A stretch of DNA of 64,000 bases from Bacteroidales bacterium (GTDB taxonomy: Bacteria; Bacteroidota; Bacteroidia; Bacteroidales; VadinHA17). Positions 7,409-25,687 of this stretch are shown in pieces; the stretch's first letter is position 1; every line of letters begins with the position of its first letter. The translations under genes and the position numbers were made by a program. Where the stretch lies: NCBI GenBank assembly GCA_016928075.1, contig JAFGLJ010000028.1:1-64000 (forward strand), given 5' to 3'. The notes beneath the pieces were generated by a model. The model was given only the letters and a program-made list of their open reading frames with translations. It searched no databases and was not told the DNA's origin.

Positions 7409-7464
7409 AAAAATCATGTACCGGAGGACGAGGCATGGGGCAGGGAGGTTACAATAATTGGCAA

Positions 7465-7490
7465 CCGTAGAGACGCGCTGCCAGCGCGTC
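7465..7490. repeat. Dispersed palindrome, GTAGAGACGC family
   Basis: GACGCGCTG (7472-7480) pairs with CAGCGCGTC (7482-7490), preceded by CAACCGTA as in the copies near 4051 and 46964. It lies in the 183-bp gap between the glycosyltransferase and the HEAT-repeat lipoprotein. Confidence 0.7.
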
Positions 7491-7591
7491 GTTAAATTTT
7501 GCGGGAGGTTCAATTATTTTTCTACTTTTTCACGTATCTTTATTATCATGTTCTTATTGTTTACTATTAAACAACTGTCTATTTTGTTATT

Positions 7592-8419
7592 ATGAGCTTA
7601 TCTATTAGATTGTTTCTTTTGTTTACATTACTGGTTATTGTCAGTTGTCAATCCAAAAAGAGTCGGAATCTGGAATTAATTATTATACCGCTACCTGAAT
7701 ATATTCAGGATTTACCTCCAAGTGAATCCCGGTATCTTTTAATTAACATCGGGACTGGTGAAAGAAGCTTTGTATATCCTCTTGGTGTACAGGATATTAG
7801 GTCAGGCGGACAGGAGCCAGGTTCTTTTACAAATATAGGTGTGACGGTTAATAATTGGGGTCCGGGTGCTGAGCATGCATTTAATTTCGATCAAACAGAA
7901 TACGGTATTCCACAATTTGAAATATCTATAAAAACAGAACCGGACTTTCCACTAACTTTTAAGGTAGGCAAAGAAGGTTATGTTTATTTATGTGGGGCTG
8001 GTACAGTGATTTTACAAGATGGATCAGAATATGTACTGGGATATAATATCACGGATGATCAATGGATTAATGGTCTTAAAAGCACGGAACATTATATCAG
8101 GCAGGGATCCTGTGAAGCACTGGGACGACTGGGTGTAAAAAATGCTCTACCACATCTGTTGAGTGTTCTGAATGATACAATCTGGGAGGTAAGACGCAAT
8201 GCCTGCGAGTCGCTGGGATTATTAGGGGATTTAACCGTTGTACCTGATCTTGAAAAAATGCTGAATGATGAAAACGAGCATGTAAGGGATGCAGCTGAAT
8301 ATTCAATAAATCAAATACGCGGAACACTGGAAGAAAATCTTTCAAAGTTATTGATGGAAGCAGTCGGTACAAACAGATATATGTTTATTACAAGGGATAC
8401 TTCAAGAACTGGCAATTAG
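7592..8419 (+). CDS. Lipoprotein with C-terminal HEAT repeats
   Basis: A 275-aa protein with a lipoprotein signal (lipobox LLVIVSC, Cys at about residue 19). Residues 20-155 are a strand-rich region of unknown type. Residues 165-245 carry two to three PBS-lyase-type HEAT repeats: IRQGSCEALGRLG, VRRNACESLGLLG and VRDAAEYSINQIRG, each preceded by a short helix. HEAT repeats make a curved protein-binding surface, so a scaffold role at the cell envelope is likely. No operon partner is apparent, as the downstream gap is 235 bp. Confidence 0.72.
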   Translation: MSLSIRLFLLFTLLVIVSCQSKKSRNLELIIIPLPEYIQDLPPSESRYLLINIGTGERSFVYPLGVQDIRSGGQEPGSFTNIGVTVNNWGPGAEHAFNFDQTEYGIPQFEISIKTEPDFPLTFKVGKEGYVYLCGAGTVILQDGSEYVLGYNITDDQWINGLKSTEHYIRQGSCEALGRLGVKNALPHLLSVLNDTIWEVRRNACESLGLLGDLTVVPDLEKMLNDENEHVRDAAEYSINQIRGTLEENLSKLLMEAVGTNRYMFITRDTSRTGN

Positions 8420-8572
8420 TCTAACAGGATTATATCTTTCTACAGGAATCGTGTGTTGCCTTTTCCAGATGGCTCAATAGTTAACGTTTTGTGGTTATTT
8501 CAAAATTATTTTAATATTTTTAATAAAACACTAAGAAGTGTTACCGTAATAAAACATTTCGGGAGGTTAAAT

Positions 8573-8641
8573 ATGAAAGTAAGTATTACAGGTTTGATTA
8601 CTGAGCAGAGGGGCTCCGCGGGGTATCCAAAGGGGCTTTAA
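8573..8641 (+). CDS. Possible 22-codon leader peptide or misread start
   Basis: ATG at 8573 is preceded by GGGAGG seven bases upstream, an unusually good ribosome site for this genome, and opens 22 codons ending in TAA at 8639-8641, 13 bp before the proposed TTG start of the next gene. It could be a leader peptide, or the original start of the next gene now out of frame. No homologue is recognised. Confidence 0.2.
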   Translation: MKVSITGLITEQRGSAGYPKGL

Positions 8642-8654
8642 TAAAAAATTACTT

Positions 8655-9758
8655 TTGAAGCAAGAAAAAAATATTGATGAACTAAAGATCAAGGTCAAAA
8701 GCAAAGAAGGCAAACAATGCATCTATGTTGAAAGAGATCTGTTAGTACACTCAATAATTGACAATATTGAATCATCGGATTGGGGAGTCAGGATTAAACT
8801 GTCTGATTTGGATTCAAAGGGATTTACAGGCGAAATCATGAGAGACCAGGAAGGTAGAACAATGAATGTTTCTGCCAGCTGGGAGGTATTTTCATATTCG
8901 CCCAACAAGTGGGGTGCCAGTTACATTGGATGGACCATATATTTTAACCCGGGACTGGTGGAAACAACATGCAGGTATGCAGAAAAAATAGTTAACCTGG
9001 ATACAAGGGAGCGCTCCTGGTCTTTAAAAAAGTGCATTTCCCTGACTCAGAGGAGCAGCCTGCTATCGAATGTTACAAATAAATTTCTTTTCCCTGAGGG
9101 TTGGATCCCGGCCGGTATGGGTGAACCCTGGGATATATTTGGCACCTACGGTCGTATACCGTTCAATTTACTACCACCTGTAGATACCAGTTCGTATGAC
9201 AATGAATTTGAATGGTTGCCTGAGCTGGACGAGAAATGGGAAAAATTTGCGATGATGGAAGACCTGGGAAAGACTTTCGACTCACTTCGTGATTCAGCAA
9301 AAAGTAATGGGATTGTGCTCCCAAAACCATTCCTTATATTCTTTGAATCCCCTTATCATCAGAACTGCATGATTTCTGTCACAGATTGTTATTTTGAACT
9401 TTCAGACCAAATAGTTGAAATCCCGGGTGGCCAGTCAGGTTTTTTTATCCGGTTTATGAATGACAGTCAGGGAGTAATGCACTGGTATCTATACATTGAT
9501 GGAGAAAATAATCACAGGGTAGCTGCCACAAACTGGATGCTGGACAGTGAATATCCCATTGGTAAGAGTCTGGAAAGCAAGCTTGAAGATGTAATTATTT
9601 GTTCAAATTCTTTTGTAGAGTTTATATACCGTTTCTGGATTGAAAATAAAATCTGGATTTCCGGTACCTATAAACTCCCGAGATTAAAAGAAGAGACCGA
9701 ATATATAAAGGAAGTTAAAAAGAGGGCAAAAAAATACTCAGATGAAAAGGAGGGGTAG
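8655..9758 (+). CDS. Conserved-looking protein of unknown function, TTG start
   Basis: A 367-aa soluble protein with no signal peptide or membrane helix. The N-terminal 110 residues are strand-rich, with charged edges (ELKIKVKSKEGKQCIYVERD) and a tryptophan-rich stretch near residue 90; the C terminus is a basic helix ending KKRAKKYSDEKEG. Several aromatic motifs (WIPAGMGEPWDIFGTYG, near residue 150) suggest a defined fold that I cannot name. No ATG lies near the start, so TTG at 8655 is used; a 22-codon reading frame with a good ribosome site lies just upstream in another frame. The gene converges on the WD40 cluster, with 11 bp between the stops. Confidence 0.55.
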   Translation: MKQEKNIDELKIKVKSKEGKQCIYVERDLLVHSIIDNIESSDWGVRIKLSDLDSKGFTGEIMRDQEGRTMNVSASWEVFSYSPNKWGASYIGWTIYFNPGLVETTCRYAEKIVNLDTRERSWSLKKCISLTQRSSLLSNVTNKFLFPEGWIPAGMGEPWDIFGTYGRIPFNLLPPVDTSSYDNEFEWLPELDEKWEKFAMMEDLGKTFDSLRDSAKSNGIVLPKPFLIFFESPYHQNCMISVTDCYFELSDQIVEIPGGQSGFFIRFMNDSQGVMHWYLYIDGENNHRVAATNWMLDSEYPIGKSLESKLEDVIICSNSFVEFIYRFWIENKIWISGTYKLPRLKEETEYIKEVKKRAKKYSDEKEG

Positions 9759-9769
9759 AAGAAAATTTC

Positions 9770-12457
9770 TTAATATTCTTCAGCAAATTTCTTTTTTAAC
9801 TGCTCAAGAGTGAAACTGCTTTTACACCTTGGGCATTTGTACAGTCCGTGTTCGCCTATTTTTTTGTGAGAATCTATGATTGCTCTGCAGGTCGGGCATA
9901 TATACCATTTAGTTGTGAGAGCAGTCCACAGGATGACGATAGCAAACAGAATAAGGGGACCTGCCAGCAACCATAACCAGTTGGAGAGTAGGGTCAGGGC
10001 ATAGCCACCTCCAGCAAACACTGCAGCCATTGCTAAAGCAATCAGATTGGTCAACAAAATGCTTATTATCCTGGCTCGTGAAGAAGCTTTATGTTTACCT
10101 GGTTTTATTTCCGGGATCGGCCGGGTTTTTGAGAAGGGATACTTATCCCTTTTAAACTCTTTCTCTGTATCGTCTTCAGTTTTCCTGGTGACGGGTGCTT
10201 TTTCCCACCGCCTTTCGGGTGGAGTGGGATGAGGTATCTTCTGTTTAACAGGTTCGGTTCCTAAACCTATGAGTTCCAGGATATAGACGTTTCCGCCGCT
10301 ATCACCAAGGACATAAAATTTTCCTGTAGTGCTAACAGAAATAGCTGATATATTTCCGAGGCAGGGGAATGAATTAACAGGTTCCCTTGAATTAGCATCC
10401 CATATCGTCAAAATATTGTCTTTTATGAATGATGTTTTTGCCTTCCCATCAGTCTCAAATGCGCTGAACCATTTGCCGCCTTCAACACCCTGGAAGACTT
10501 TTTTTTCTTTTCCTGTCTCAACATCCCATAACCTGAGAGTATTATCGCTGCTTGCAGAAGCAATTGTTTTTGCATCCGGGCTGAAACAAACAGAGTAAAG
10601 TGAATCTGTATGTCCTGTGAGCGTAAGTCGCTCTTTTCCTGTTTGTGCATCCCATAGTTTAATGGTTCCGTAGTTGTAGTCTGAAGCTAATGATTCCCCA
10701 TCAGGAGAAAATACACAATCTATGCTCTCTACATTAATCCTGTATATTTTCTCCCTTGCCTCCATATCCCACATAGTGATTCCATCACCTATAAAAATCA
10801 TCCTGTTACCGTCAGGGCTGAACTTGCAGGAAGACCATGCTGCATCTTTTTCTATTACTTCAATATGATTGTTGTTCTTCAGATCACATAAAATGACATT
10901 CCCTTCGCCTGCACCACTATCTTTCCCTGAAACTGCGACAATTTTTTCCCCATCCGGGCTAAAGGAAATATAATTTATCGCAGCTTCATCTTCATAGATA
11001 GTAGTTCTCCGTGGTGTTAGCCTGACCAGCTTATTATAATTACCCTGTTTCAATAAAATAATTTCCCCCATTGTTGTTCCTATTACTATATCTTTCCTGT
11101 CAGGGCTGAAACCACAATAGGTGATTGGTGATTCAATCTGCTTGTTATGATGCACAAAGTCTCCGGTATAGGCGTCATAAATAATAAGATTACTGTCGAG
11201 ACTTCCTGCCATTACCTTCGAATCGTCAAGATTGAAGGCACAGCAGGAGACCCTGTCCGTAAGAAAATCATCCTCATAGACAGTCTCTACACGGGCTCTT
11301 GTTGCATCCCAGATTTTAATTGTACCATCAATGCTGCTTGAAGCAATCGATTTCCCATCCGGGCTATATATACATTTGCTTATTTTATCGTTGTGACCTA
11401 TCAGTTTGCTTAGAAATTCAAAACTATCTGCATCCCAGAGCAACAAAAAATTATCTGCCCCTCCTGTGATAATAACAGAGCCATCCGGACTATATGCACA
11501 TGCAGTAATTTCTTTCGAGTGTGTTTCTCCCCTGGGAACATCCTCGAAATCACCTTCAGAATCAAGTTCGTCATTCTCTGTTATATAGAATATCTCCGGC
11601 AAATGATATCCTTTGCCGGAATCCCCACCTGTTACAATATCTACTCCATTCGAATTTAAAGCACAACAGCTTAAACTTCCTTTCAACCGCTCATAGCTTA
11701 ATTCCTCATAACTATCTGCATCCACCAAAGCAATTTCCCCGTCGTCGTTTGTTTTAACAATAATTCTGCCATCCGGGCTATAAGAACATGAAGTTATTGG
11801 ACGATAACCTGATGTTATTGTCCAACATTCCTGGAATGTTATTGAATCCCAAAATTTAATCTCACCATCATCACTTCCGGAAACAATCGTTTTTCCATCC
11901 GGGCTGAATGCCAATGCATTGACTATATCAGAATGTCCCTCCAGCCTTGCCAGTTCTTTATATGTTAAAGAATTCCAGATTATAAGGTTATTATCCTGGC
12001 CTCCTGATACAATAAGTTTACCGTCAGGAGAGTAGCTGCAACAATTCACTCCTTCATCATGAGCTTTTAGTGTCTTTATTTCCGTAAGGGTTTTTACATT
12101 CCAAATTTTTACGGTTTTGTCATCACCTGCTGAAAGAATCAGCCTGTTGTCAGGAGAAAAGGCGCATGAATTAATTGGATTTCCATGTTCTTTTATTGTA
12201 GCCAAAATCACCGACTCAGATTCAGCAAGTGCATTTTTTAATTTAAACCAGGGCTCTGAGCCCGGTTTACTTCTGTTTTCTAATACTGACTTAATAATCC
12301 CTGAAATCAATCCGTTACCACCCTCACGGTCAACCCACTGCAGACGGTTATACATCTGCTGCCAGAGAATCTCAGGCCGCTCGCGCAGATTGTGAAGCTC
12401 CTGGCCCAGGACCTTCCGGAAAGCTTCTAAAACTGTTTTTTGCTCTGTGCGGTTCAT
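9770..12457 (-). CDS. WD40 protein with N-terminal helical module, two membrane helices and zinc ribbon
   Basis: An 895-aa protein. Residues 1-60 form a helical module (MNRTEQKTVLEAFRKVLG, then ILWQQMYNRLQW) shared with the other WD40 protein of the cluster. Residues about 75-710 contain 15 recognisable WD40 blades, typical ones ending SGSDDGEIKFW or SASSDNTLRLW, enough for two seven-to-eight-bladed propellers. Residues about 780-840 hold two membrane helices (ISILLTNLIALAMAAVFAGG and LWLLAGPLILFAIVILW), followed by a four-cysteine zinc ribbon (CPTC ... CPRC). The propellers are therefore probably held at the inner membrane on its cytoplasmic side. It is the last gene of the minus-strand cluster, 57 bp after the Nudix gene. 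Many blades are diverged, so it is older or less homogenised than its paralogue. Confidence 0.85.
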   Translation of the reverse strand: MNRTEQKTVLEAFRKVLGQELHNLRERPEILWQQMYNRLQWVDREGGNGLISGIIKSVLENRSKPGSEPWFKLKNALAESESVILATIKEHGNPINSCAFSPDNRLILSAGDDKTVKIWNVKTLTEIKTLKAHDEGVNCCSYSPDGKLIVSGGQDNNLIIWNSLTYKELARLEGHSDIVNALAFSPDGKTIVSGSDDGEIKFWDSITFQECWTITSGYRPITSCSYSPDGRIIVKTNDDGEIALVDADSYEELSYERLKGSLSCCALNSNGVDIVTGGDSGKGYHLPEIFYITENDELDSEGDFEDVPRGETHSKEITACAYSPDGSVIITGGADNFLLLWDADSFEFLSKLIGHNDKISKCIYSPDGKSIASSSIDGTIKIWDATRARVETVYEDDFLTDRVSCCAFNLDDSKVMAGSLDSNLIIYDAYTGDFVHHNKQIESPITYCGFSPDRKDIVIGTTMGEIILLKQGNYNKLVRLTPRRTTIYEDEAAINYISFSPDGEKIVAVSGKDSGAGEGNVILCDLKNNNHIEVIEKDAAWSSCKFSPDGNRMIFIGDGITMWDMEAREKIYRINVESIDCVFSPDGESLASDYNYGTIKLWDAQTGKERLTLTGHTDSLYSVCFSPDAKTIASASSDNTLRLWDVETGKEKKVFQGVEGGKWFSAFETDGKAKTSFIKDNILTIWDANSREPVNSFPCLGNISAISVSTTGKFYVLGDSGGNVYILELIGLGTEPVKQKIPHPTPPERRWEKAPVTRKTEDDTEKEFKRDKYPFSKTRPIPEIKPGKHKASSRARIISILLTNLIALAMAAVFAGGGYALTLLSNWLWLLAGPLILFAIVILWTALTTKWYICPTCRAIIDSHKKIGEHGLYKCPRCKSSFTLEQLKKKFAEEY

Positions 12458-12514: not shown

Positions 12515-12940
12515 CTAATATGACTGATTCTTGATATCCCTGGTCAGTTCCAGGTAGGCACTTACCTGCTCTTCCATTGAAGTGCTCCATGGATATTCTT
12601 TGTATTCTTCAGGCTTAATCCAGGCATGTGCGTCGTGCTCGGGACTTAAGCTGATGCTTCCGCTGACATAGTCGCATACAAAGGTTATGCCTGTTACCCA
12701 GAATGGCTCCTTGATAAAGTGCCATGTCTTGAAGGGTCGTCCAACATGGATATCTATTCCTGTTTCTTCCTCTACCTCTCTTTTCAGTGCATCAGTCAGG
12801 TCCTCCCCGTAATCCATCTTTCCGCCCGGAAGCTCCCACTTACCAGGGTCATGACTGCTTTTTTGCGCACGTTGAAGTATCAGTATCTTTTCATTTTTCC
12901 TGATGATAGCTTTTCCTGCTACCCCTAATGGTTTGTTCAT
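12515..12940 (-). CDS. Nudix hydrolase
   Basis: A 141-aa Nudix pyrophosphohydrolase. The Nudix box is seen as GGKMDYGEDLTDALKREVEE followed by ETGI, with the metal-binding REVEEE core intact. The N-terminal VAGKAIIRKNEKILILQR and WELPGG segments resemble MutT/ADP-ribose-type enzymes; the exact nucleotide substrate is unknown. I choose ATG 12938-12940 because it overlaps the TGA of the upstream WD40 gene (ATGA) and has GGGAGGG nine bases before it, so its translation is coupled to that gene. Its placement between two WD40 genes suggests it works with the cluster, perhaps hydrolysing a nucleotide signal or damaged nucleotide; that is inference. Confidence 0.85.
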   Translation of the reverse strand: MNKPLGVAGKAIIRKNEKILILQRAQKSSHDPGKWELPGGKMDYGEDLTDALKREVEEETGIDIHVGRPFKTWHFIKEPFWVTGITFVCDYVSGSISLSPEHDAHAWIKPEEYKEYPWSTSMEEQVSAYLELTRDIKNQSY

Positions 12941-15900
12941 TTTAGTTCCCTCCCGCATTTTTTACAATATTTATTTGTTGATGAATTTATATACCCACAT
13001 TTACATATGATGGTTTCAGATTTTTCAGCAGGAGGTCCAGGCTGTTTAGCTCCTCCTGCTTTTTTATTTTCTGTCTTAAAAGCAGCCTGGAGCATTCCCA
13101 CTGCGGCCTGATACCGTACCTCATTGCTTATGCTCTCATTTTTAGCCACAGACTCAAGTGCATTCATGGCTTCTGCGCCACCAATCTGTCCGAGTGCTTT
13201 TGCAGCGTTAACCGCGACCCCGCTATTTTCATCGTAGAGGCAGCCGGTTAAGACCTTAACTGCAGCCGGGTCCTCCAGTTTGCCGAGTGCCCAAATCATA
13301 GCGCTTCTGACCTCAGGTACAGCTTCATGCATCAAGGCAACAATGAGACCATGTGTGGCCCTTTTGTCCTTAAGAAAACCAAACAAACCGGCAAATATCA
13401 ACTTTATGTTGGTGTCAGGATTTAAGAATACCAGGGAACAGATATCAAATGCATCGGCCTTTCTCAATCTGAGGGTTGCCCATATACAGGCACTGATGGT
13501 CATAATAGAGTCAGATGTAATACCCATTTTCAAACTATCTGCAAGGATGTCAAACTTTTCTGTTGGATAGTTTAACTGGGATCCTCCTTGTACAGAAAAA
13601 AGAATTTCTGCCGCTTCCTGGCGATGCTGCTCTTCTTTTGAGCCGAGTATTTTGATAAGCTGATGTATGGCGGTCGGTCTTTCAGATGTACCCATAATAC
13701 GCCGGCTAATATCCTCCGGCTTAACGCAATCCAGTGTACCTTCCGATAATTTCTGTTCAAGAAAAAGGAAGAAGGCCTTTTCTTCTATTTGCGCAATTTT
13801 TCTCAAGCCTGTTATCCCCTCTTGACCAGTTCCGGGTCTGTCAACTTCAATTTTGGCCTTGGAGTCAGTAGAAGGTTTTAAAGGCGTTTCTTTTACTGAA
13901 GAGCCTATATTGAAACCGTATAGATCCAGAATATAAATATTGCCACCTGTATCACCGCAACAAATTCTTGACTCTTTTAAGCTATAGCTTACGGATTTTA
14001 CTTCTCCCAAGGAGGGGAAAAAACCAATAGGTTCTCCATTATTTATATTCCAAAGTTTCATGGTATTATCTGAGCATGCAGAGACTATTTTGGTCCCATC
14101 AGGGGAAAAGATGATTTTGTTACCAAATGCATGTCCTTTAGGGGCTTTGATCTCGGCCCCTGACTCTGCATCCCATAGCTTCAGGGTATTATCCGAGCTT
14201 TCCGATACTATCTTTTTCCCATCCGGTGAATAGGCGTATGATCCGATACTTTCCGTATGGAGATTTCTTTTAGTGGCGCCTGACTCTGAGTCATAAAGCT
14301 TTAATGTCTTATAGGATATAGTGAGTATCTGTTTTCCATCCGGAGAAAATATGACATCGGAATTAAATAGGTGGCCTTCGAGGGTCTTGATTTCGGCTCC
14401 TGACCCTGCATCCCAGAGCTTTAAGCTATCGCTTACCGAAAGTATCTGTTTTCCGTCAGGGGAAAAGGTGCAGGATTTGATTCTCCATGTGTGTCCTTTG
14501 AAGGTGTTGACCTCGGCTCCTGACTCTGTATCCCAAAGCTTTAAGGTATTGTCCATGCTTGCCGAGAGTATCTTTCCCCCATCAGGGGAAAAAGTGCAGA
14601 AATTAATACTGGATGTATGACCTATGAGGGTCTTGATCTCGGCTCCTGACTTCACATCCCAGATCTTTATCGTATTTTCAGGGCCAGGCGAGACAATGTT
14701 TTTTCCATCCGGGGAAAAGGTGCGGTGGTCAACACCAAAGGTATAGCCTTTCCGGGTCATGATTTCATCTCCTGACTTCACATCCCAGAGTTTTAAGGTC
14801 ATATCATCGCTGGTGGTAGCTATCTTTTTCCCATCAGGGGAAAAAGCACAGGAATTGACACCAGATGTGTGGCCTTTGCTCGCAGTGGTACTGTTTGTTG
14901 AATCTGCTGCCCAGAGCCTTAAGGTATTATCCCGGCTTGCCGAGACTATTTTTTTCCCATCCGTTGAAAAAGCGAAGGAATTGATTCTGGATGAGTGGCC
15001 TTTGAGAGTTTTGATCTCGGCTCCAGATTCTGTATCCCAGAGTTTTAATGTCATCCAGCCTCCTGAGAGTATATTATTCCCATCAGGTGAAAAGACGCAG
15101 AAATTAACAGGATCATTGTGGCCTTTGATGTTCGTTATCTCTTCTCCTGACTCTGCATCCCATAATTTTAAGGTCTTATCAATGCTCGCTGAGACTATCT
15201 TTCTTCCATCGGGTGAAAAAGCGCAGGAATTGACACTTTGAGTGTGTCCTCTGAGGGTTGTGACCTCTGTTCCGGATTCTACATCCCAGATCTTTAAGAT
15301 TTTAACCACGCTTGACGATACTATCTTATTCCCATCCGGTGAAAAGGCACAGGATTCTATCTTATATTTGTGACCTTCTAGTGTGCTGATCTCGACTCCA
15401 GTCTCTGTATCCCAGACTTTCAAGGTATTATCCAAGGCTGCAACAATCATTTTTCCATCCGGGGAGAAGACACAGGAATTGACCCACTTACTGTTGAAGG
15501 TCCTGATCTCGGTTCCTGACTCAGCATTCCTGAGTTGTAACCCAATCCCGATAGCTGAGAGTATCTTATTCCCATCAGGGGAAAAGGAGCAGGAATATGC
15601 ACTATTTTTTTGAACTTTCAGAGTCGTGATATCAGCTCCTGACTCTACATCCCAAAGTTTTAAGGTCTTATCCTGGCTTGCTGAGACTATCTTTTTTCCA
15701 TCCGGTGAAAAGGCGCATGATTCGACACTTTCAGTATGACCTTTTAAGGTTCTTATTATAGACTCCGACTCTACTGTTCTGTTTATCTGGTGAAACCATG
15801 GATTGCTTCCCGGATGTATTCTTTTCTTAAACTCAGGAGCTAAAATATTTGAAACTGGTCCATCCCCATCTTCTCCATCCTCCCACTGCAGTCTATTGTA

Positions 15901-16005
15901 CATCTGCTGCCAGAGGATATCAGGCCATATCATCAGATTGTGAAGTTCCTTGCCCAGGACCTTTCGGAATGCCTCTAAAACTTTTTTTTGCTCTTTTCGG
16001 TTCAT
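12937..16005 (-). CDS. WD40-HEAT protein with C-terminal zinc ribbon
   Basis: A 1022-aa protein. Residues 1-60 are a helical module (MNRKEQKKVLEAFRKVLG, ILWQQMYNRLQW) nearly identical to that of the other WD40 protein. Residues about 75-690 hold 15 WD40 blades; most are close copies of FSPDGKKIVSASxDNTLKLW followed by SGAEIKTLKGHT, which points to recent internal duplication. A linker leads to about five HEAT repeats (residues 730-985, e.g. VRSAMIWALGKLEDPAAVKVL), and the last 24 residues are a zinc ribbon (CKCG ... CKKCGRELK) matching the end of the Clp-like ATPase. ATG 16003-16005 is preferred over 16044: it matches the paralogue's start and has GGAG seven bases upstream. Likely a multi-site binding scaffold. 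Confidence 0.88.
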   Translation of the reverse strand: MNRKEQKKVLEAFRKVLGKELHNLMIWPDILWQQMYNRLQWEDGEDGDGPVSNILAPEFKKRIHPGSNPWFHQINRTVESESIIRTLKGHTESVESCAFSPDGKKIVSASQDKTLKLWDVESGADITTLKVQKNSAYSCSFSPDGNKILSAIGIGLQLRNAESGTEIRTFNSKWVNSCVFSPDGKMIVAALDNTLKVWDTETGVEISTLEGHKYKIESCAFSPDGNKIVSSSVVKILKIWDVESGTEVTTLRGHTQSVNSCAFSPDGRKIVSASIDKTLKLWDAESGEEITNIKGHNDPVNFCVFSPDGNNILSGGWMTLKLWDTESGAEIKTLKGHSSRINSFAFSTDGKKIVSASRDNTLRLWAADSTNSTTASKGHTSGVNSCAFSPDGKKIATTSDDMTLKLWDVKSGDEIMTRKGYTFGVDHRTFSPDGKNIVSPGPENTIKIWDVKSGAEIKTLIGHTSSINFCTFSPDGGKILSASMDNTLKLWDTESGAEVNTFKGHTWRIKSCTFSPDGKQILSVSDSLKLWDAGSGAEIKTLEGHLFNSDVIFSPDGKQILTISYKTLKLYDSESGATKRNLHTESIGSYAYSPDGKKIVSESSDNTLKLWDAESGAEIKAPKGHAFGNKIIFSPDGTKIVSACSDNTMKLWNINNGEPIGFFPSLGEVKSVSYSLKESRICCGDTGGNIYILDLYGFNIGSSVKETPLKPSTDSKAKIEVDRPGTGQEGITGLRKIAQIEEKAFFLFLEQKLSEGTLDCVKPEDISRRIMGTSERPTAIHQLIKILGSKEEQHRQEAAEILFSVQGGSQLNYPTEKFDILADSLKMGITSDSIMTISACIWATLRLRKADAFDICSLVFLNPDTNIKLIFAGLFGFLKDKRATHGLIVALMHEAVPEVRSAMIWALGKLEDPAAVKVLTGCLYDENSGVAVNAAKALGQIGGAEAMNALESVAKNESISNEVRYQAAVGMLQAAFKTENKKAGGAKQPGPPAEKSETIICKCGYINSSTNKYCKKCGRELK

Positions 16006-16110
16006 TGGAGTCTCCTGATCTTCAGCAATAAGATTATGGCTCATATCATATTATTTCTGATAATTATTTTATTACCAGGGTACTACTAAAATCACAAATA
16101 CTGGGACCTG

Positions 16111-16335
16111 TCAGTCCTGCGGCGGACCCTGTATCGTTACTTTATTTCCGCAATTTGGACAGCGACCATTGTTCTTTTCGACACAACGGTCACAGTGTAT
16201 GTAACCGCAATTCTCACATCTGGCATAATAAAAGGCCATAGTGTCAGGATTCTCATCTTTTCCAACCGGGTTACCTCCAGGGATTGCCGAAATTGAAATA
16301 AACCTGTTACATGTCGGGCAAATGTTAATAGTCAT
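16111..16335 (-). CDS. Small zinc-ribbon protein
   Basis: A 74-aa protein with four CxxC pairs: CPTC at residue 6, CENC near 41, CDRC near 49 and CPNC near 59. This gives two possible zinc sites, the second of a RING/rubredoxin-knuckle type. It has a strong Shine-Dalgarno, AGGAGG eight bases before the ATG, unusual for Bacteroidota. It lies in the cluster between the 74-aa unknown protein (25 bp upstream) and the WD40-HEAT gene (105 bp downstream). Its likely role is as an adaptor that bridges cluster proteins carrying similar ribbons; this is inferred from composition and position only. Confidence 0.7.
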   Translation of the reverse strand: MTINICPTCNRFISISAIPGGNPVGKDENPDTMAFYYARCENCGYIHCDRCVEKNNGRCPNCGNKVTIQGPPQD

Positions 16336-16360: not shown

Positions 16361-16585
16361 TTAAAAATGATAGATGATTGCCTTAGCCCCGAGCTGACTT
16401 TTTTGCTCATTGGGATCCTGGCATACAGCGATATCTACTGTTTGTCCCGGATAATGTGCCTTGCGGTATTGCTCCGCAGGCAATATTTGATTTTCATGCC
16501 AGACCAGCATGATGAAGTCAGCGCTTCCATCATAAAGATCATTTTTACCAAGGTGATAAACCTTATTGAATCCGTACTTTTCCAT
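16361..16585 (-). CDS. Small protein of unknown function in the STAND/WD40 cluster
   Basis: A 74-aa protein starting 3 bp after the STAND NTPase stop codon, so it is almost certainly translated from the same message. It is a mixed alpha/beta sequence (NDLYDGSADFIMLVWHENQ, then AHYPGQTVDIAVCQ) with no signal peptide, membrane helix or metal motif. I do not recognise the family. Tight linkage suggests a partner, inhibitor or effector of the NTPase. Confidence 0.55.
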   Translation of the reverse strand: MEKYGFNKVYHLGKNDLYDGSADFIMLVWHENQILPAEQYRKAHYPGQTVDIAVCQDPNEQKSQLGAKAIIYHF

Positions 16586-16588
16586 ATA

Positions 16589-18931
16589 TTATTCTTGTGG
16601 TAAGTTATTAATTGTCAGATCATAGTCTTCGAGCAATGCGAGGGGTCCCGTATAGGATTTTGTCTTATTTCCTTTTGCATCAATATTTTCCTGTACACCC
16701 ACCCTGGCTGCTTTTTGTTCTAAAAACCGGAAATCAACAAGTATTTCAAAGAGCTCGTCCCACCTCTCTGCCCTGGCGAGGTGGAAAGGGAGTTCGCTCA
16801 GCGCCCGCGAGGATCCCAGCCAGGTTTTCTTTCGCATGTTCTTCTCCGGGTCTCTTTCCGTATCTGCCTGGTTAAGAAGATAATCTGCCAGCACCTGCTG
16901 GTACGACTGTTCATTCTTATCCAGGTATTTGTTTTTTGAAACTTCGCCAAGCTCACGGTGAAAGAAGGTGAGCAAAGTAGTGCTTTCGTGATTTCTTTCG
17001 GAAAGATAGGGTTCAAGGTCAAAGTACAATCGTGCCCAGACAGCCACAGGCAGTCTCCTTTCCGGTGGTTCGTGTTTAACCTTTTCCAGGAATTTATCAA
17101 AAAACGTCTTATCGGAAGACAGTACTTCAAGCAACTCATCCTCGGCCAGACCATTCATTTCACGGGTGGCTGCTATATATCCAAAGCATCGTGCCACAAG
17201 AAGTTCACCATGTTCCTGTTCCAGCCTCTTAAGTAGATTGTTACGGATAATTCCCTCTGTACCGGAGGCAAGGCTTACTTCCCCTGTATACGATTTCCAT
17301 AGTCGGGCTTCTTCGAAGGCAAGTTTAAGGTAAAGGGGCCATCCGCAGGCGGAAAACTTATCAAGAACCTCCTTCTTTTGAAAATCCTGCAGCTTCCTGC
17401 CGGTGTCTTTCAGCCATCTGTCGAGCAACAGTTCTCCTTCTGATATACTCATGGGCTCAAGGTTATATATACTATCCTGGGGTATTCTGTTTCTGATGGC
17501 AACCAGGTATTCGCCGGGCCTGGTGCTTACAACCATTTTGACATTATCGGGTAACTCAGCAGGCAGCCAGTTAAGGCTACCGGCATTATATGCTGTTGAA
17601 AGCTGATCTATGGAGTCAAGAAATAGAACCAGGGGTTTATCCCCGGTAGCCAGGGCGAGCCGTCCCGGAAACTCCTGCACGAGGTCTTCATAGCTTGTCG
17701 GTATATCTTCATCCGCACCATAGGCACGGGATATCTGGCGGCAAAGATCTTCCAGCAGGGACCGGACTATGGATGAATTAGGTGTTGCCCCTATAAATCG
17801 GGATATAATCTCTGCCCGGCCGTTTTCTGCCCTGACCTGCTTCAGTGCGAAAGCCAGCAAGGCTGATTTACCCGAGCCTCCTTCACCATATATGCATATT
17901 GGGTGATTGCTACCCCCTGAAATATATCCGTTTATTGTTTCCAAGGCAGAGCTTCGGCCAACGAAAACCCTTGCCCTTTCTTCACCAAAACGTACGTGAT
18001 CCTCTATTTCTTTTTCCAGGTACGGTTTGGCTTTGATCTGTTCTATTTCGCTAAGAATAACCTTCTCCAGTGATGAATAAACATCCCTGCAAAGATCATT
18101 AATATGATTCTTTGTTATTCCGTCTTCTGTCCACCTCGCTTTATATTTGAAGATATTTCCGGAAAGATCTTCCTCGAGCTGGTTCTTTAATTTATCCAGC
18201 TTCTCTCTTGATAGTTCGTCTGGTTTTCCGTCATCTTCCAGGTCAACAAAATTTTTATCCACGGGTAGCACTCCTTCGAATTCCCTGAAAAAGCAAAAGA
18301 CATGTTCCCGGGCATCATTTATACTAAGAGCGCCCTTATATATTTCCTGTTCAGTAGCCGAAGCAAGATATTTAAGTCTTTTATCCTGTGTGATGGATAA
18401 CTTTGCCTCGGCTTTATCCAGTATATTGCGCATGTTCCTTTCAACTTTATTTTCCCAGATATTAAAATCCACAAATTCGCCCGTACGTGGCTGAAGGTCA
18501 TGCACCGGGACAGTAATGTTGTCTGTCTCGAAAACAGCATTATCGTCTCGCCTGTACCAGGTTTCAAGAAGTTTTCTTTCATCCAGGTCAGGTGTGTGGT
18601 TGAGGATCTGCTCAAATTCGTCTGCCGGTATCTTTTCCGGCAGTGGCTGCCACCCGTAGCGGTTGCCCAGGAGCAATAAAAAGTTTGGCCTTGGTGAGGT
18701 ATGCTGGCACCTTTTCAATTCATCAAGGCATATTTCCATCGTTCTCTGGTCAATGCCGGCCTCTTCGCCTATTCCCCAGCGCAGGTCAATGGCCTGAAAC
18801 TGACAGTCGTTATCCCTGCATAATTTCTTCAATGCAGGAAAAACTTCTTTTTGGAGTGCGTTTCTCTCTTCCTGGAGGTCGGTAAATGTTGAGCTGATAA
18901 ATATGCGGAATGTCTTGCCTGTATGCGCCAT
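16589..18931 (-). CDS. DUF4062-STAND (NACHT-like) P-loop NTPase
   Basis: A 780-aa signalling NTPase. Residues 8-105 are a DUF4062 domain (FRIFISSTFTDLQEERNALQ, IDLRWGIGEEAG, LLLLGNRYGW). The NTPase domain follows: Walker A GEGGSGKSA near residues 347-356, Walker B LVLFLDSIDQL near 435, and a sensor-like VVSTRPGEY near 478. The C-terminal third is helical and ends with ELPFHLARAERWDELFEIL and ALLEDYDL, the region that precedes WD40 repeats in eukaryotic DUF4062-NACHT-WD40 proteins such as NWD1. Here the chain stops at that point and WD40 propellers are encoded separately downstream. STAND NTPases are ATP-driven sensors that oligomerise on ligand binding. A role in defence or stress sensing is plausible; the trigger and output are not known. 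Confidence 0.87.
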   Translation of the reverse strand: MAHTGKTFRIFISSTFTDLQEERNALQKEVFPALKKLCRDNDCQFQAIDLRWGIGEEAGIDQRTMEICLDELKRCQHTSPRPNFLLLLGNRYGWQPLPEKIPADEFEQILNHTPDLDERKLLETWYRRDDNAVFETDNITVPVHDLQPRTGEFVDFNIWENKVERNMRNILDKAEAKLSITQDKRLKYLASATEQEIYKGALSINDAREHVFCFFREFEGVLPVDKNFVDLEDDGKPDELSREKLDKLKNQLEEDLSGNIFKYKARWTEDGITKNHINDLCRDVYSSLEKVILSEIEQIKAKPYLEKEIEDHVRFGEERARVFVGRSSALETINGYISGGSNHPICIYGEGGSGKSALLAFALKQVRAENGRAEIISRFIGATPNSSIVRSLLEDLCRQISRAYGADEDIPTSYEDLVQEFPGRLALATGDKPLVLFLDSIDQLSTAYNAGSLNWLPAELPDNVKMVVSTRPGEYLVAIRNRIPQDSIYNLEPMSISEGELLLDRWLKDTGRKLQDFQKKEVLDKFSACGWPLYLKLAFEEARLWKSYTGEVSLASGTEGIIRNNLLKRLEQEHGELLVARCFGYIAATREMNGLAEDELLEVLSSDKTFFDKFLEKVKHEPPERRLPVAVWARLYFDLEPYLSERNHESTTLLTFFHRELGEVSKNKYLDKNEQSYQQVLADYLLNQADTERDPEKNMRKKTWLGSSRALSELPFHLARAERWDELFEILVDFRFLEQKAARVGVQENIDAKGNKTKSYTGPLALLEDYDLTINNLPQE

Positions 18932-18956: not shown

Positions 18957-19094
18957 TTAGTATAGGCTGTTAATTGCAGGTATGACCTTATCTTTTCTTC
19001 CATTGGAACCGCATAAACGCAGGTTGTACAGGTTTCCACCTGTATCACCACAGCAAAACCTGAAATCAGTCGGGCTAAACACCACCACTTTGTG
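18957..19094 (-). pseudogene. Remnant of a third WD40 gene (last blade)
   Basis: Read on the minus strand, these 45 codons encode VVVFSPTDFRFCCGDTGGNL followed by YNLRLCGS and a stop. This matches the last blade of the WD40-HEAT protein (RICCGDTGGNIYILDLYGF) and of the other WD40 protein (VLGDSGGNVYILELIG). The remnant begins inside, and one frame off from, the final codons of the YbjN-like membrane gene and has no start of its own. It is best explained by deletion of most of a third WD40 gene that once lay between the membrane-protein gene and the STAND gene. Confidence 0.78.
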
Positions 19095-19977
19095 CTTTCA
19101 TCCATGCACTTCTTCTTTTTTCATCGTCATGTGTTTCTTCCAGGCTGATACGCGGTAATAATATTGCCGCTATGAACCGACCCAGGAACAACCCGCCGAT
19201 GTATCCAATGAGAGCCGCAAGCCACCATATCTCCCACAATTCATAGGTTCCCAAAAGCAGGGCAACACCAACAACCGGATGAAGGGCAAAGAATATAAAG
19301 CGTTTGATTTTGTGAGGATCGGTGATAAGATCGGGGATAGCCCTTGCCACAATAAACTGTGTCCATAGGAAAACAAAAATGGCCAGTGCCCAGGAGGTTG
19401 TTCTGGTATAAGTATATATACCTGCTGCGATTGCAGATGCAAGCCCCAATAATGAAAAAATAGTCCTTAATTTTTGAACACCCTGCCTGTTATCACTTCG
19501 CGGCCTGCTTAAAGTAAATGGATTCATTGCATTAAGGTATTGACCCCAGGTACCAGCTTTAGGGCTGTACATCACTACGCCTTTAGTGTCAAAGTCTTTA
19601 GCCAGGATATTGATGTATCTGCCAGATACTGTGGCAACAGTATTAATAGCCCTTTGTAACTCTTCGTAATCAAGGTTCACAAGAGGTCTTTTTATTTGAA
19701 GATCAATTGTGCCAACTCTTTCATTGATGGCAAAAGCAGCGTCCTGGGTATCGGTAAGATTAAGAGTAAGCAGCTTTCTGAAAAGAGGCAATAAATTCTG
19801 TTCGGGTAAACTGATCACTGGTGAAGAAACCAGGAGAAGGTCTTTTTTGGGAACAGCAACCACGGCCACAGGTATGTTGCCCTGTTTAAGCATAGCCTTA
19901 TTGTTTTTATCAAGGCTGATATTATACATCTTTTTCAGGAACTTGTTCAGGTTATCAATATTCTTTTTTTCTGACAT
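19075..19977 (-). CDS. YbjN/CesT-like domain protein with four membrane helices
   Basis: A 300-aa protein. Residues 1-135 have the alternating pattern of YbjN/CesT-type (type III chaperone-like) domains: LLLVSSPVISLPEQNLLPLF, then DAAFAINERVGTIDLQIKR, and YEELQRAINTVATVSGRY. Residues about 168-275 hold four membrane helices (IFSLLGLASAIAAGIYTYT, ALAIFVFLWTQFIVARAI, FIFFALHPVVGVALLLGTY, WWLAALIGYIGGLFLGRFIA). The cytoplasmic tail ends SAWMKAQSGGV, and its last codons overlap a WD40 remnant in another frame, so the original C terminus may have been replaced. It lies 29 bp after the Clp-like gene. It may recruit the cluster proteins to the membrane. Domain naming is by pattern only. Confidence 0.65.
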   Translation of the reverse strand: MSEKKNIDNLNKFLKKMYNISLDKNNKAMLKQGNIPVAVVAVPKKDLLLVSSPVISLPEQNLLPLFRKLLTLNLTDTQDAAFAINERVGTIDLQIKRPLVNLDYEELQRAINTVATVSGRYINILAKDFDTKGVVMYSPKAGTWGQYLNAMNPFTLSRPRSDNRQGVQKLRTIFSLLGLASAIAAGIYTYTRTTSWALAIFVFLWTQFIVARAIPDLITDPHKIKRFIFFALHPVVGVALLLGTYELWEIWWLAALIGYIGGLFLGRFIAAILLPRISLEETHDDEKRRSAWMKAQSGGV

Positions 19978-20006: not shown

Positions 20007-22610
20007 TTATTTAAGATCTCTACCACATTTCCAGCACCATCTGTTCGAAGAAGGATTAACGGCACCGCATCCCTTGCACTTTTTGGATTCTAATGTTTCT
20101 TTGCTTTTGTCCGGTTCGGATTTACTATCCAGCAAATTCTGCAGTATTTCATCAGGAGCAGCTGTTTTTCCGGGTCCTTCTTTTTTAGGTAACGGATCTT
20201 TTTTTTCTCTCTCGTCTTCCTCTATTACTTTTTCATCATCTTTCTTAACATCCTGTTTGACAACACGTTTTGCTTTAAATGTAATTACTCCATCCGACAA
20301 TCCAAGTTTTATTATATCATGCTCTGAAATTTGCCCCCTGATTATTTCATTTGCCAGGGGGTCCACCACCAGGTTTTCAATTGTCCTTCTCAGTGGCCGA
20401 GCTCCCATTGTCGGGTCATAACGGGCATTCACCAAAAAATCAATCACTTCCTTATCAGCTTCAACCTTAACTTTCAGCTTTGATAACATAATGGAGGCAA
20501 TTTTTTTCAGATCCTCTTTTTTGAGTGGATTGAAAATAACAGTTTCATCGATGCGGTTCATGAATTCGGGACTGAGCTTTATTCTCAATTGTTTTTCAAT
20601 ATCGCCACGTATGTCAGTAATTGTAAGTCCCTTCTCTTTCTCTTCCGATGTTTTGAAACCCATCCCGAAAGCGCTGCGCTCGTTTATTTTCTGTGAACCT
20701 ATATTGGAAGTCATAATAACAACGGTATTCCTGAAGTTCACCGGCCTGCCCAGTCCGTCTGTAAGGCGGCCTTCCTCAAGGATCTGAAGCATTATCCGGA
20801 GTACTTCGGGGTGAGCTTTTTCAATCTCATCAAAAAGGACGACCGAGTAGGGTTGCTTCTTAACTGCCTCGGTTAACTGACCACCCAGTTCTGAGTCAAC
20901 ATATCCATGAGGAGAACCTATCAGGCGGGAGATAGTATGTTTCTCATAAAATTCCGACATATCGATCTGGGTTATACGGTCTTCATCGTCAAACAGTATT
21001 CCTGCAAGGGTTTTGGCCAGCTCGGTCTTACCTACTCCTGTCGGACCAAGAAAAAGAAAGGAGCCTATTGGTCTTTTAGGGTTGCCAAGTCCGGAGCGTG
21101 ACTTCCTGATAGATCTGGCAATGGCGGATATGCCCTGTTCCTGACCGACAATTTTCTTTCTCATAAGTTCTTCCAGGGCAAGCAGTTTAACGCTCTCTTT
21201 TTCAGTTAGCTTACCGGAAGGAATTCCGGTCCATTCGGAAACAACGCGTGCTACGTCCTCATAGGAAATTAAGATTGATTTTGGAGTTTCCTGTGTTCGT
21301 GTTTTATCTGAGAAAAGGTCACGTTTCTCTTCCTTTGTAAGCTGTCCGAGGTCACGTACTCCGTAATATAGTCTCAGTTTCTTCTGGGAGCAGGCCTGGT
21401 CGATGAGGTCAATGGCCTTGTCTGGCAGGCGCCTGTCTCCAATGTACCTGGAAGATAGTTCCACAGCTGCTTCAACTGCTTCGTCCAGTATTTTAACATT
21501 GTGAAATTCCTCATATTTAGGTCTCAGGCCCCACAATATATCAAGCGTTTCATCCGTGGTAGGCTCACCGACAAAGACCGGTTGAAATCGCCGTACCATA
21601 GCCTGGTCTTTCTCAATATGTTTTCTGTATTCTTCGTTTGTAGTTGCTCCAATACACTTGAGGCGACCGCGGCTGAGTGCCGGTTTCAAAATATCAGCTG
21701 CACCCATAGCTCCTCCCCGTGCAGCCATTAAGGTGTGTATCTCATCGATAAAGAGGATGAGGTCAGGGTTTCCCTCAGCTTCTTTAATAATCTCATTCAG
21801 CTTTTTTTCAAACTCACCGAGGAACATGGTGCCGGAAGCAAACACTGATACCATTTCTATACTCCGAAGCCTTTTTCCCTCCAGGTCAGGCGGAACCTTT
21901 TTTGATACCATAACCTGCGCAAGGCCTTCCACAATAGCTGTTTTACCTACTCCTGCATCACCTACAATGATACAGTTATTCTTTCGTCTTCCTGTAAGGA
22001 TCTTTATTATTTCAAGAATAGTATCTTCGCGTCCAATTATCGGATCAAGCTTACCCTGCTCGGCATCAGCGGTAAGGTCGCGTCCCAGTTTTTTAAGCAA
22101 GCCTGATGACTTATCTATCCCTGGTTGCTCAACCGTTTTTCTTTCTCCATAAAATTTATTCGGCCATTCTCCCTTGCGCATCATCTCACGCAGGCCGTGG
22201 GATAATTTTGTAGGATCAGCTCCAAGGCTCCTGATGACTTTAAACAGTCCGCTTAAATCATTATCAAGGATGCCCAACAGTATATGTGGAGCCTCAACTT
22301 TATCCTGGCCCAGGCTGGCTGCCTCCCTTTGAGCTACCTCCAGGCTTTTTCTTACCTCCAGGGAGAGAAAAATTTGAACGCCGATTTTACCGCCCCCGGC
22401 TGAAAGCATTTTCCATATCTTATCACGCAGATTATTAATATCAAGGCCGACTTTTTGAAACTGTATTTGAATATGAACATCTTTCAGTTCAACCACACCA
22501 AGGAAAAGATGCCCTGTCTCCATATTCACAAAGCGCAACTGGCGGGTAATCTGTTCAGCAAAAGTTAATGCGAGTTTACCTGACTCACCAAGTTTATCGA
22601 TGCTTATCAT
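20007..22610 (-). CDS. ClpC/ClpA-like double AAA+ ATPase with C-terminal zinc ribbon
   Basis: An 867-aa Clp/Hsp100 unfoldase. Residues 1-145 are a double Clp N motif (HLFLGVVELK; APHILLGILD). NBD1 has Walker A GDAGVGKT near 217 and Walker B LILFIDEIH near 288; NBD2 has Walker A GPTGVGKT near 527 and VVLFDEIEKAHPE near 593. There is no long ClpB-type middle domain. After NBD2 Walker B, in the place of the ClpP-docking loop of ClpA/ClpC, the sequence reads AFGMGFKTSEE, so ClpP binding is possible. An acidic-basic linker and a zinc ribbon (CKGCG ... CWKCGRDLK) end the chain; the ribbon closely matches the end of the WD40-HEAT protein. It is the first gene of the cluster. A type VI ClpV role is unlikely, since no secretion genes are present. 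Confidence 0.9.
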   Translation of the reverse strand: MISIDKLGESGKLALTFAEQITRQLRFVNMETGHLFLGVVELKDVHIQIQFQKVGLDINNLRDKIWKMLSAGGGKIGVQIFLSLEVRKSLEVAQREAASLGQDKVEAPHILLGILDNDLSGLFKVIRSLGADPTKLSHGLREMMRKGEWPNKFYGERKTVEQPGIDKSSGLLKKLGRDLTADAEQGKLDPIIGREDTILEIIKILTGRRKNNCIIVGDAGVGKTAIVEGLAQVMVSKKVPPDLEGKRLRSIEMVSVFASGTMFLGEFEKKLNEIIKEAEGNPDLILFIDEIHTLMAARGGAMGAADILKPALSRGRLKCIGATTNEEYRKHIEKDQAMVRRFQPVFVGEPTTDETLDILWGLRPKYEEFHNVKILDEAVEAAVELSSRYIGDRRLPDKAIDLIDQACSQKKLRLYYGVRDLGQLTKEEKRDLFSDKTRTQETPKSILISYEDVARVVSEWTGIPSGKLTEKESVKLLALEELMRKKIVGQEQGISAIARSIRKSRSGLGNPKRPIGSFLFLGPTGVGKTELAKTLAGILFDDEDRITQIDMSEFYEKHTISRLIGSPHGYVDSELGGQLTEAVKKQPYSVVLFDEIEKAHPEVLRIMLQILEEGRLTDGLGRPVNFRNTVVIMTSNIGSQKINERSAFGMGFKTSEEKEKGLTITDIRGDIEKQLRIKLSPEFMNRIDETVIFNPLKKEDLKKIASIMLSKLKVKVEADKEVIDFLVNARYDPTMGARPLRRTIENLVVDPLANEIIRGQISEHDIIKLGLSDGVITFKAKRVVKQDVKKDDEKVIEEDEREKKDPLPKKEGPGKTAAPDEILQNLLDSKSEPDKSKETLESKKCKGCGAVNPSSNRWCWKCGRDLK

Positions 22611-24419: not shown

Positions 24420-25640
24420 TCAGGATGGAACGTATTTAACGGATTGTTTGATGCCATCTTTATACTTTACTATTGAGTCAAGTTTACCGTCTGCAGACCA
24501 GTAAGACCATTCGCCATCCATCAACCGATGCTTAAAATATCCTTCTACCTTTATATTACCGCTTTCATAATATACCAGATACCTTCCATCAAGGATTTCA
24601 GGGTTTAAACTCGAATAATATGATACCCCCTGTAGAGTATCATTCATAAAGTAATCTTTCATTATATAAAGGTTTGATTCCGGGTCTTTTTCTATCTTCC
24701 TGTAATATTTTGCCTTTTTTCTTCTTGTGGTTTTTTCCCATTTTTTATCAAGCAGAATTACCTCATTATTACCTGTCAGATATCGATCATCATGAATTTC
24801 AATATCTCTTATGTTATTAATCTCATTGATAACTAAATCGGATAAGAAATATGAGTGTTTTCCTTTATGTAGCTCCTCAGATATATTGATCTTGAAGATT
24901 TGATCAAAATCACCGTTAACACTTATATAAATATCCCCGGTACCCAGGTCACATACCGTTGAATATATAGTTTTCGCGACAATATTGTTTTGATGTGTTG
25001 CATCAAGAATTGAAAAAAAATTATCAACCGTCATTTCCAGCTCATTTATCATTTTTTCTGCTTTCCTTAACCTCCTGCTCCCGATGTTATACCAGTGGAA
25101 ATTCTCTGAATCTTCCCTGCAATTAATTCTGAAGTTTGTACATACCTGGTGGTTACCAGCTTTTTTTGTGACAGTCAGTTCATTGTTGTAATAAGTAATT
25201 ATTGCATTTTCCCCCGTTTTATCAACTACCATAAGCTGTGCAACCCGAAATCCTTCCCAGTAGTATTTTTCAAAAAGGCTAATTACATCATCGACAGTTG
25301 CACATTCTTCTGCGATTTTATGTAAAACATTACCCCCGATGTCCAGTCTCTCACAAATATTACCGGCTTCGGTATACGGGTATGCTCTTAAACCGTCCCA
25401 GAACAGTCCTTTTTCATTGATCCCTGCCTGAACAGAGCCATCATATCCAAACAAAGCATAACCATATCTTCCTTCACTTGCAGGTATAAACCACACCTGG
25501 GAGTTCCTCTTTTTGAAATCTTCATTGCTCCCGACCAGAGTTCTCTTACCATCTGTACACATAAATACCGTACATGCAAATAATTGCATGCCTGCTTGTA
25601 GTAAAAGAACTAAAAGCGCTATTGATTTTGAGTATTTCAT
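24420..25640 (-). CDS. Exported Ntn amidohydrolase (choloylglycine hydrolase-like) with MORN-like tail
   Basis: After a signal peptide (KSIALLVLLLQAGMQLFA) the mature chain would begin with CTVF, placing a cysteine at the new N terminus as needed for N-terminal nucleophile hydrolases of the penicillin V acylase/acid ceramidase group. Downstream residues fit that group: GSNEDFK, GYDGSVQAGINEKGLFWDG and a FEKYYWEGFRVAQLMVVDK segment. About 110 C-terminal residues include two MORN-like repeats (GNIKVEGYFKHRLMDGEWSY). I use the start at 25640, since the five residues encoded upstream add nothing. The enzyme probably cleaves a linear amide in the periplasm; bile-salt activity should not be assumed. 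Confidence 0.72.
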   Translation of the reverse strand: MKYSKSIALLVLLLQAGMQLFACTVFMCTDGKRTLVGSNEDFKKRNSQVWFIPASEGRYGYALFGYDGSVQAGINEKGLFWDGLRAYPYTEAGNICERLDIGGNVLHKIAEECATVDDVISLFEKYYWEGFRVAQLMVVDKTGENAIITYYNNELTVTKKAGNHQVCTNFRINCREDSENFHWYNIGSRRLRKAEKMINELEMTVDNFFSILDATHQNNIVAKTIYSTVCDLGTGDIYISVNGDFDQIFKINISEELHKGKHSYFLSDLVINEINNIRDIEIHDDRYLTGNNEVILLDKKWEKTTRRKKAKYYRKIEKDPESNLYIMKDYFMNDTLQGVSYYSSLNPEILDGRYLVYYESGNIKVEGYFKHRLMDGEWSYWSADGKLDSIVKYKDGIKQSVKYVPS

Positions 25641-25687
25641 TATTATGCATTTCAATTGTAGGTTGAAATAATTAAGGTCAGAAATTG

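Follow-up and report, generated by a model that had tools for sequence, protein, structure and literature searches.

A probable remnant of a third WD40 sensor gene beside a DUF4062-NACHT STAND gene in a Bacteroidales bacterium

We analysed positions 1 to 64,000 of contig JAFGLJ010000028.1 from a Bacteroidales bacterium (the window, meaning this whole stretch) and found that a 45-codon minus-strand frame at 18957-19094 is most probably the 3' end of a third WD40 sensor gene, which once lay directly 5' of a DUF4062-NACHT STAND gene and was deleted up to its last blade. We put the probability of this reading, in which the surrounding cluster is a split NLR, at about 0.8. The cluster runs along the minus strand in the order Clp, CesT/YbjN-like membrane gene (CesT-TM), remnant, STAND, two small genes, WD40-HEAT, NUDIX, and WD40-TM. 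The features that bear on the fragment are:

18957-19094, minus strand: probable remnant (3' end) of a WD40 sensor gene, with last-blade homology at 19008-19085 and its own tail and stop; assigned from profile and DNA homology and from a slot 5' of STAND that is conserved in relatives
16589-18931, minus strand: STAND core, comprising DUF4062 (TIR-like NADase family), NACHT, and an NWD1-type winged helix; assigned from Pfam, PDB matches to TEP1 (11gz) and KpSwz (10wc), alignment, and a fused relative (L016/L036)
12937-16044, minus strand: WD40 sensor 1 (WD40-HEAT), with linker at 15724-16005, WD40 blades, last blade at 13915-14037, HEAT repeats, and a zinc-ribbon tail
9770-12457, minus strand: WD40 sensor 2 (WD40-TM), with linker at 12176-12457, WD40 blades, last blade at 10265-10387, a hydrophobic, likely membrane segment, and a zinc ribbon
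19075-19977, minus strand: CesT/YbjN-like chaperone domain (Pfam CesT, E = 2e-8) and hydrophobic membrane region, its 3' end overlapping the remnant

The fragment between the membrane gene and STAND

The fragment translates as HKVVVFSPTDFRFCCGDTGGNLYNLRLCGSNGRKDKVIPAINSLY followed by a stop, and its counterpart in WD40-HEAT is SYSLKESRICCGDTGGNIYILDLYG; the last blades are KSVSYSLKESRICCGDTGGNIYILDLYGFN in the WD40-HEAT gene and VLGDSGGNVYILELIG in the second WD40 gene. The homology to the last blade of WD40-HEAT, claimed in the original prediction, was confirmed by blastn within the window, which aligned 19002-19057 with 13909-13964 (75% DNA identity over 56 bp, E = 2e-5), and by the protein alignment, whose BLOSUM62 score of 86 compares with 44 at most in 500 shuffles. 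A last-blade profile built from nine genes matched the fragment with E = 6.6e-7, and the same profile without both window rows still matched it with E = 1.4e-4, the best value in the reversed window being 0.43. The fit occupies positions 16-41 of the 41 in the profile, corresponding to ~26 residues at 19008-19085, and refines the claim: instead of a whole blade, the fragment comprises the 3' two-thirds of a last blade, followed by a tail and stop that look natural. It carries the signature GD[ST]xGxx[YH]xxxL, which marks the terminal blade at the 3' end of the WD40 sensor genes of the cluster; the WD40 last blade matches Pfam Beta-prop_TEP1_C. Differences between the fragment and WD40-HEAT number 7/10/15 at codon positions 1/2/3, a distribution that does not separate a pseudogene from a gene.

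Neither the N-terminal linker of the WD40 sensors (containing PDLLWQQLYNRLQW) nor a full propeller is left 5' of the fragment, and blastn and profile searches detected no other pieces of the lost gene in the window. Because no linker or blade remains on its 5' side, we regard the fragment as a remnant and not as a member gene of the WD40 sensors. As originally described, the frame overlaps the last codons of the membrane gene in another frame, by 20 nt. Such an overlap of two frames in the same direction is what one would see if the blade were the true C terminus of the membrane protein, reached by a frameshift, either programmed or due to an assembly error, with no remnant at all; we consider this very improbable, since a lone two-thirds blade is not expected to fold alone, every full match of the motif is the last blade of a long propeller, and the membrane gene already ends in a stop and plausible tail of its own.

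The slot 5' of STAND in relatives

With the linker as query, the genome_contigs collection (84,980 species) yielded ten loci, few in number and mostly metagenome-assembled. As its third row the query alignment (A2) included a composed sequence modelled on the family consensus, whose sole use was to broaden the search patterns; every relative was confirmed against the window sequence itself. Closer to home the cluster is scarce: 60 genomes of close relatives held only one STAND homologue, at 36% identity, with nothing close in the same genus or family, and the linker alone found one weak match among 395 genomes of the phylum and 393 of the order. Phage, plasmid, and viral collections returned no cluster member, only remote DUF4062 or WD40 matches.

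Five loci combine a split STAND with available upstream sequence (L013, L037, L039, L043, and L044, from Bacillota, Chloroflexota, and Actinomycetota). In all five, the neighbour directly 5' of STAND, on its strand, is an intact WD40 gene that has both linker and last blade, and the fragment occupies precisely this position in the window. An intact WD40 gene between the membrane gene and STAND in relatives was what the original prediction proposed to look for; none of the relatives carried the short fragment as part of an intact, different gene, the outcome that it had named as contrary. The best relative, a Syntrophomonadaceae metagenome-assembled genome (MAG), has in L013 the order WD40 with linker, STAND, RelA/SpoT-SLOG-RyR protein, YbjN-like protein, and Clp; beyond Clp follow, in L035, HEAT, NUDIX, a second YbjN-like protein, and an apparent ClpP, the last two recognised by inspection. 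Together L013 and L035 have five genes in common with the window, namely STAND (64% identity), Clp (56-62%), NUDIX (65%), HEAT (39%), and the sensor linker (57%).

A loss at this slot can be followed in Chloroflexota. Searching by STAND within the class of a Chloroflexota genome added a single genome, G1150, whose locus L048 alone was found independently of the linker. Compared with L044, the upstream gene and the first ~22 WD40 codons align at 77% and the sequence from ~45 bp before STAND onward at 82%, and the two flanks are separated by a 1,922-bp gap that amounts to nearly the whole WD40 gene; L044 and L039 retain it. The sensor deletion in L048 and the fragment in the window suggest that the slot was emptied at least twice, leaving opposite ends: a 5' stub in Chloroflexota and a 3' stub in the window. 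Together with the five intact loci, this supports the earlier proposal that most of a third WD40 gene was deleted. At E 1e-60, STAND searches of the Dehalococcoidia class (197 genomes) and of the class of Syntrophomonadaceae (98 genomes) yielded no further genome.

The placement also bears on a different origin of the fragment, a partial duplication or gene conversion from WD40-HEAT that copied only its 3' end, so that a third intact sensor never stood at the locus. The closest match of the fragment is indeed the last blade of WD40-HEAT (57% at the amino-acid level, besides the DNA identity given above). A copy of this kind would, however, have had to land in the correct orientation exactly at the intact-sensor site of the five relatives and the L048 deletion site, and the tail after the blade, SNGRKDKVIPAINSLY up to the stop, is unlike WD40-HEAT, which continues into HEAT repeats. 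As this tail is unmatched in WD40-HEAT, the fragment ends as a gene of its own, and we judge the partial copy improbable.

Several points weigh against the reading of a deleted third sensor in a split NLR. The homology is limited to ~26 residues of the fragment, too few to name the lineage of the lost sensor. The five loci were found via the linker, so the presence of WD40 genes near STAND was selected for, while their position was not. The predicted structure of the STAND protein is poor (AlphaFold, pTM 0.36), too weak for a fold search. We found no sister strain that still has the WD40 gene intact at this very locus, and a deletion at this exact locus cannot be demonstrated without one.

Sensor decay is visible at other loci. 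On L014, another contig of the genome that holds L013, a second sensor (L014 1305-1800) is truncated to the linker and about one blade with an internal stop, followed by unrelated sequence; the sequence upstream of it resembles that of the intact L013 sensor, which may reflect duplication with the 5' flank and subsequent truncation. At L043 (Solirubrobacteraceae; 6660-6770 and 7275-9738) the STAND gene carries a frameshift close to its end, and the opposite strand has a short second STAND start, pointing to further decay.

A STAND core with separately encoded sensors

In the window STAND protein, DUF4062 and NACHT score above the Pfam cut-offs and HTH_NWD1 reaches 25.1 bits against a cut-off of 27, which the L013 STAND exceeds. 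In PDB, the STAND profile matches TEP1 (2.6e-17) and, weakly, the DUF4062 domain of KpSwz (10wc). A SATEQE motif (E194/E196) in the DUF4062 region, invariant in five STANDs, stands at the expected site of the catalytic Glu; the alignments to TEP1 E1008 and KpSwz E97 stop short of it.

A Dehalococcoidia contig (L016/L036) has the parts fused: a single 1,760-aa frame opens with a stretch that looks TIR-like by inspection and continues through DUF4062, NACHT, and the linker to WD40, the last blade, and a zinc ribbon. Aligned with this fused protein, the window STAND matches through residue 778 of its 780, and the linker begins immediately after; the window and L013 STANDs both stop at the linker boundary. 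Sensor repeats at the C terminus of the STAND chain are absent from the window protein, the fusion being seen in L036 only. Both WD40 genes of the window open with this same 90-residue linker domain, 60% identical between them. Because STAND ends where the linker starts in the fused protein, the separate WD40 genes appear by alignment to be its C-terminal arm, that is, the detached sensor arm of the STAND protein, which the first reading of the window had missed; judged on sequence, the cluster is a split NLR with one predicted TIR-like-NADase/NACHT core and several separate WD40 sensors. The Dehalococcoidia contig also carries a split STAND flanked by WD40 genes on both sides (L037). The DUF4062 and STAND-sensor literature that we searched contains no description of split or separately encoded STAND sensors, and one may still exist. 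As a separate observation, the fused protein (L016 6869-12151, equal to L036 8070-13412) possibly has two NADase-type domains in one chain.

The number of linker-bearing genes ranges from 1 to 5 per genome, in line with the suggestion that the WD40 number varies; the accompanying idea of a dedicated sensor-diversifying mechanism was not borne out. A diversity-generating retroelement (DGR) is unlikely to be the source of variation, as no reverse transcriptase (PF00078) was found in the genome, which is 76% complete. Within single sensors, blade-to-blade DNA identity averages 0.87 in L043 and 0.79 in L037, and 0.53 in WD40-HEAT with best pairs up to 0.83; the near-identical blades are a pointer to blade duplication. 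The variation best shown in these clusters is whole-gene gain and loss.

Possible function and comparison with known systems

DUF4062 is a TIR-like NADase with a role in abortive infection against phages and in TEP1; the proposal for TEP1 is that its WD40 domains, by responding to a signal, promote NACHT oligomerisation (PMC13174449). In the scheme that we find most likely, the sensor arms of helical linker and WD40 propellers, encoded apart from the core and in several copies around STAND, would each use the linker to dock at the end of the core and keep it inactive. Once a sensor binds its ligand, NACHT would be free to oligomerise and the TIR-like domain to destroy NAD+; the Clp, YbjN/CesT-like, and NUDIX proteins are putative processing or effector partners. 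We give this scheme of docking, sensing, and NADase release even odds, and the ligand, the NADase activity, and a defence role of the cluster are likewise predictions. Somewhat short of that stands the wider proposal of a split NLR in bacteria that keeps its one NADase-NACHT core while a changing set of separate, interchangeable WD40 sensors is gained, duplicated, and deleted around it, the fragment being the fossil of one loss.

Alternatively, the cluster may be a stress or protein-quality system in which DUF4062-NACHT works with Clp, NUDIX, and YbjN-like proteins and the WD40 proteins are scaffolds, a view compatible with the remnant. The Clp unfoldase, the ClpP-like gene, and the RelA/SpoT-SLOG-RyR gene of L013/L035 fit stress signalling, and STAND matches no PADLOC system. 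It nevertheless seems unlikely to us given the patchy distribution (STAND is 64% identical in a Bacillota MAG against one remote homologue in 60 relatives), the near-identical tandem blades in several relatives, the turnover of sensors, and the antiphage function of DUF4062 (PMC13174449).

Human TEP1 and NWD1, DUF4062-NACHT-WD40 proteins of APAF-1-like architecture, have the same order of TIR-like DUF4062, NACHT, winged helix, linker, and WD40 propellers; the window and six relatives differ in cutting the chain between core and sensor arm and in having several arms per core. Swarozyc (KpSwz, PMC13174449) has the same DUF4062 domain family, on a weak profile match to 10wc, but is described as recognising the phage portal through a C-terminal auxiliary domain of its own, whereas the window has NACHT after DUF4062 and separate WD40 proteins. 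Bacterial STAND/NLR and ternary conflict systems (eLife 2020 e52696, PMC7159879; PNAS 2024 e2316469121, PMC10907252) resemble the cluster in their STAND core, variable repeat sensors, multi-gene loci, and sensor diversification; DUF4062 is unmentioned in both papers, and the systems of PMC10907252 diversify by DGRs, whereas the window cluster appears to gain and lose whole separate sensor genes.

If the proposal is correct, the cluster would offer a testable bacterial model of an immune network with one executor and many sensors, in which sensing could evolve by gene swapping with the switch untouched. NLR receptors usually unite effector, switch, and sensor in a single chain; here the sensor stands apart and comes in several versions. 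Plant helper/sensor NLR pairs, in which one executor is served by several sensors, work alike and are a lead only, as plant sensor NLRs carry their own NB-ARC ATPase and the window sensor gene has no ATPase domain. One short fragment, compared with relatives, exposes what appears to be repeated sensor loss at a fixed slot.

The remaining genes of the cluster are:

20007-22610, minus strand: ClpA/B/C-like double AAA+ unfoldase with a zinc-ribbon tail, the counterpart of the L013/L035 Clp gene
12515-12958, minus strand: NUDIX hydrolase, matching the L035 NUDIX gene
16361-16585, minus strand: small conserved protein of 74 aa, 34% identical over 62 aa (E = 2e-5 and 6e-6) to a small gene that lies on the 5' side of the L015/L037 sensor
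16111-16335, minus strand: small zinc-ribbon protein (Pfam DZR, weak, under the gathering score)

No Pfam family matches the 74-aa protein, although it is shared with the Dehalococcoidia cluster (E = 6e-6). The membrane gene, whose C terminus may have changed as first suggested, has no relative in 60 close genomes, 395 genomes of the phylum, or the genome_contigs, viral-contig, and plasmid collections. The HEAT part of WD40-HEAT is the portion that corresponds, at the 39% given above, to a stand-alone HEAT gene in L035. Clp and WD40-HEAT end with a common zinc-ribbon tail (20010-20117 and 12940-13044; 47% over 36 aa), perhaps a docking tag, and the window Clp has, by eye, an MGF tripeptide near the position of the ClpP-binding loop; a putative ClpP protease gene (L035 3-488) closes the Syntrophomonadaceae cluster. 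RyR-domain proteins accompany the clusters at L013 5290-7938 (with RelA/SpoT and SLOG) and at L020 6571-9894 and 17164-18966 (TrkA_N), a hint of nucleotide signalling. A neighbour of the window cluster at 24420-25655 resembles C45-family autoproteolytic hydrolases, with a score under the NCBIfam cut-off.
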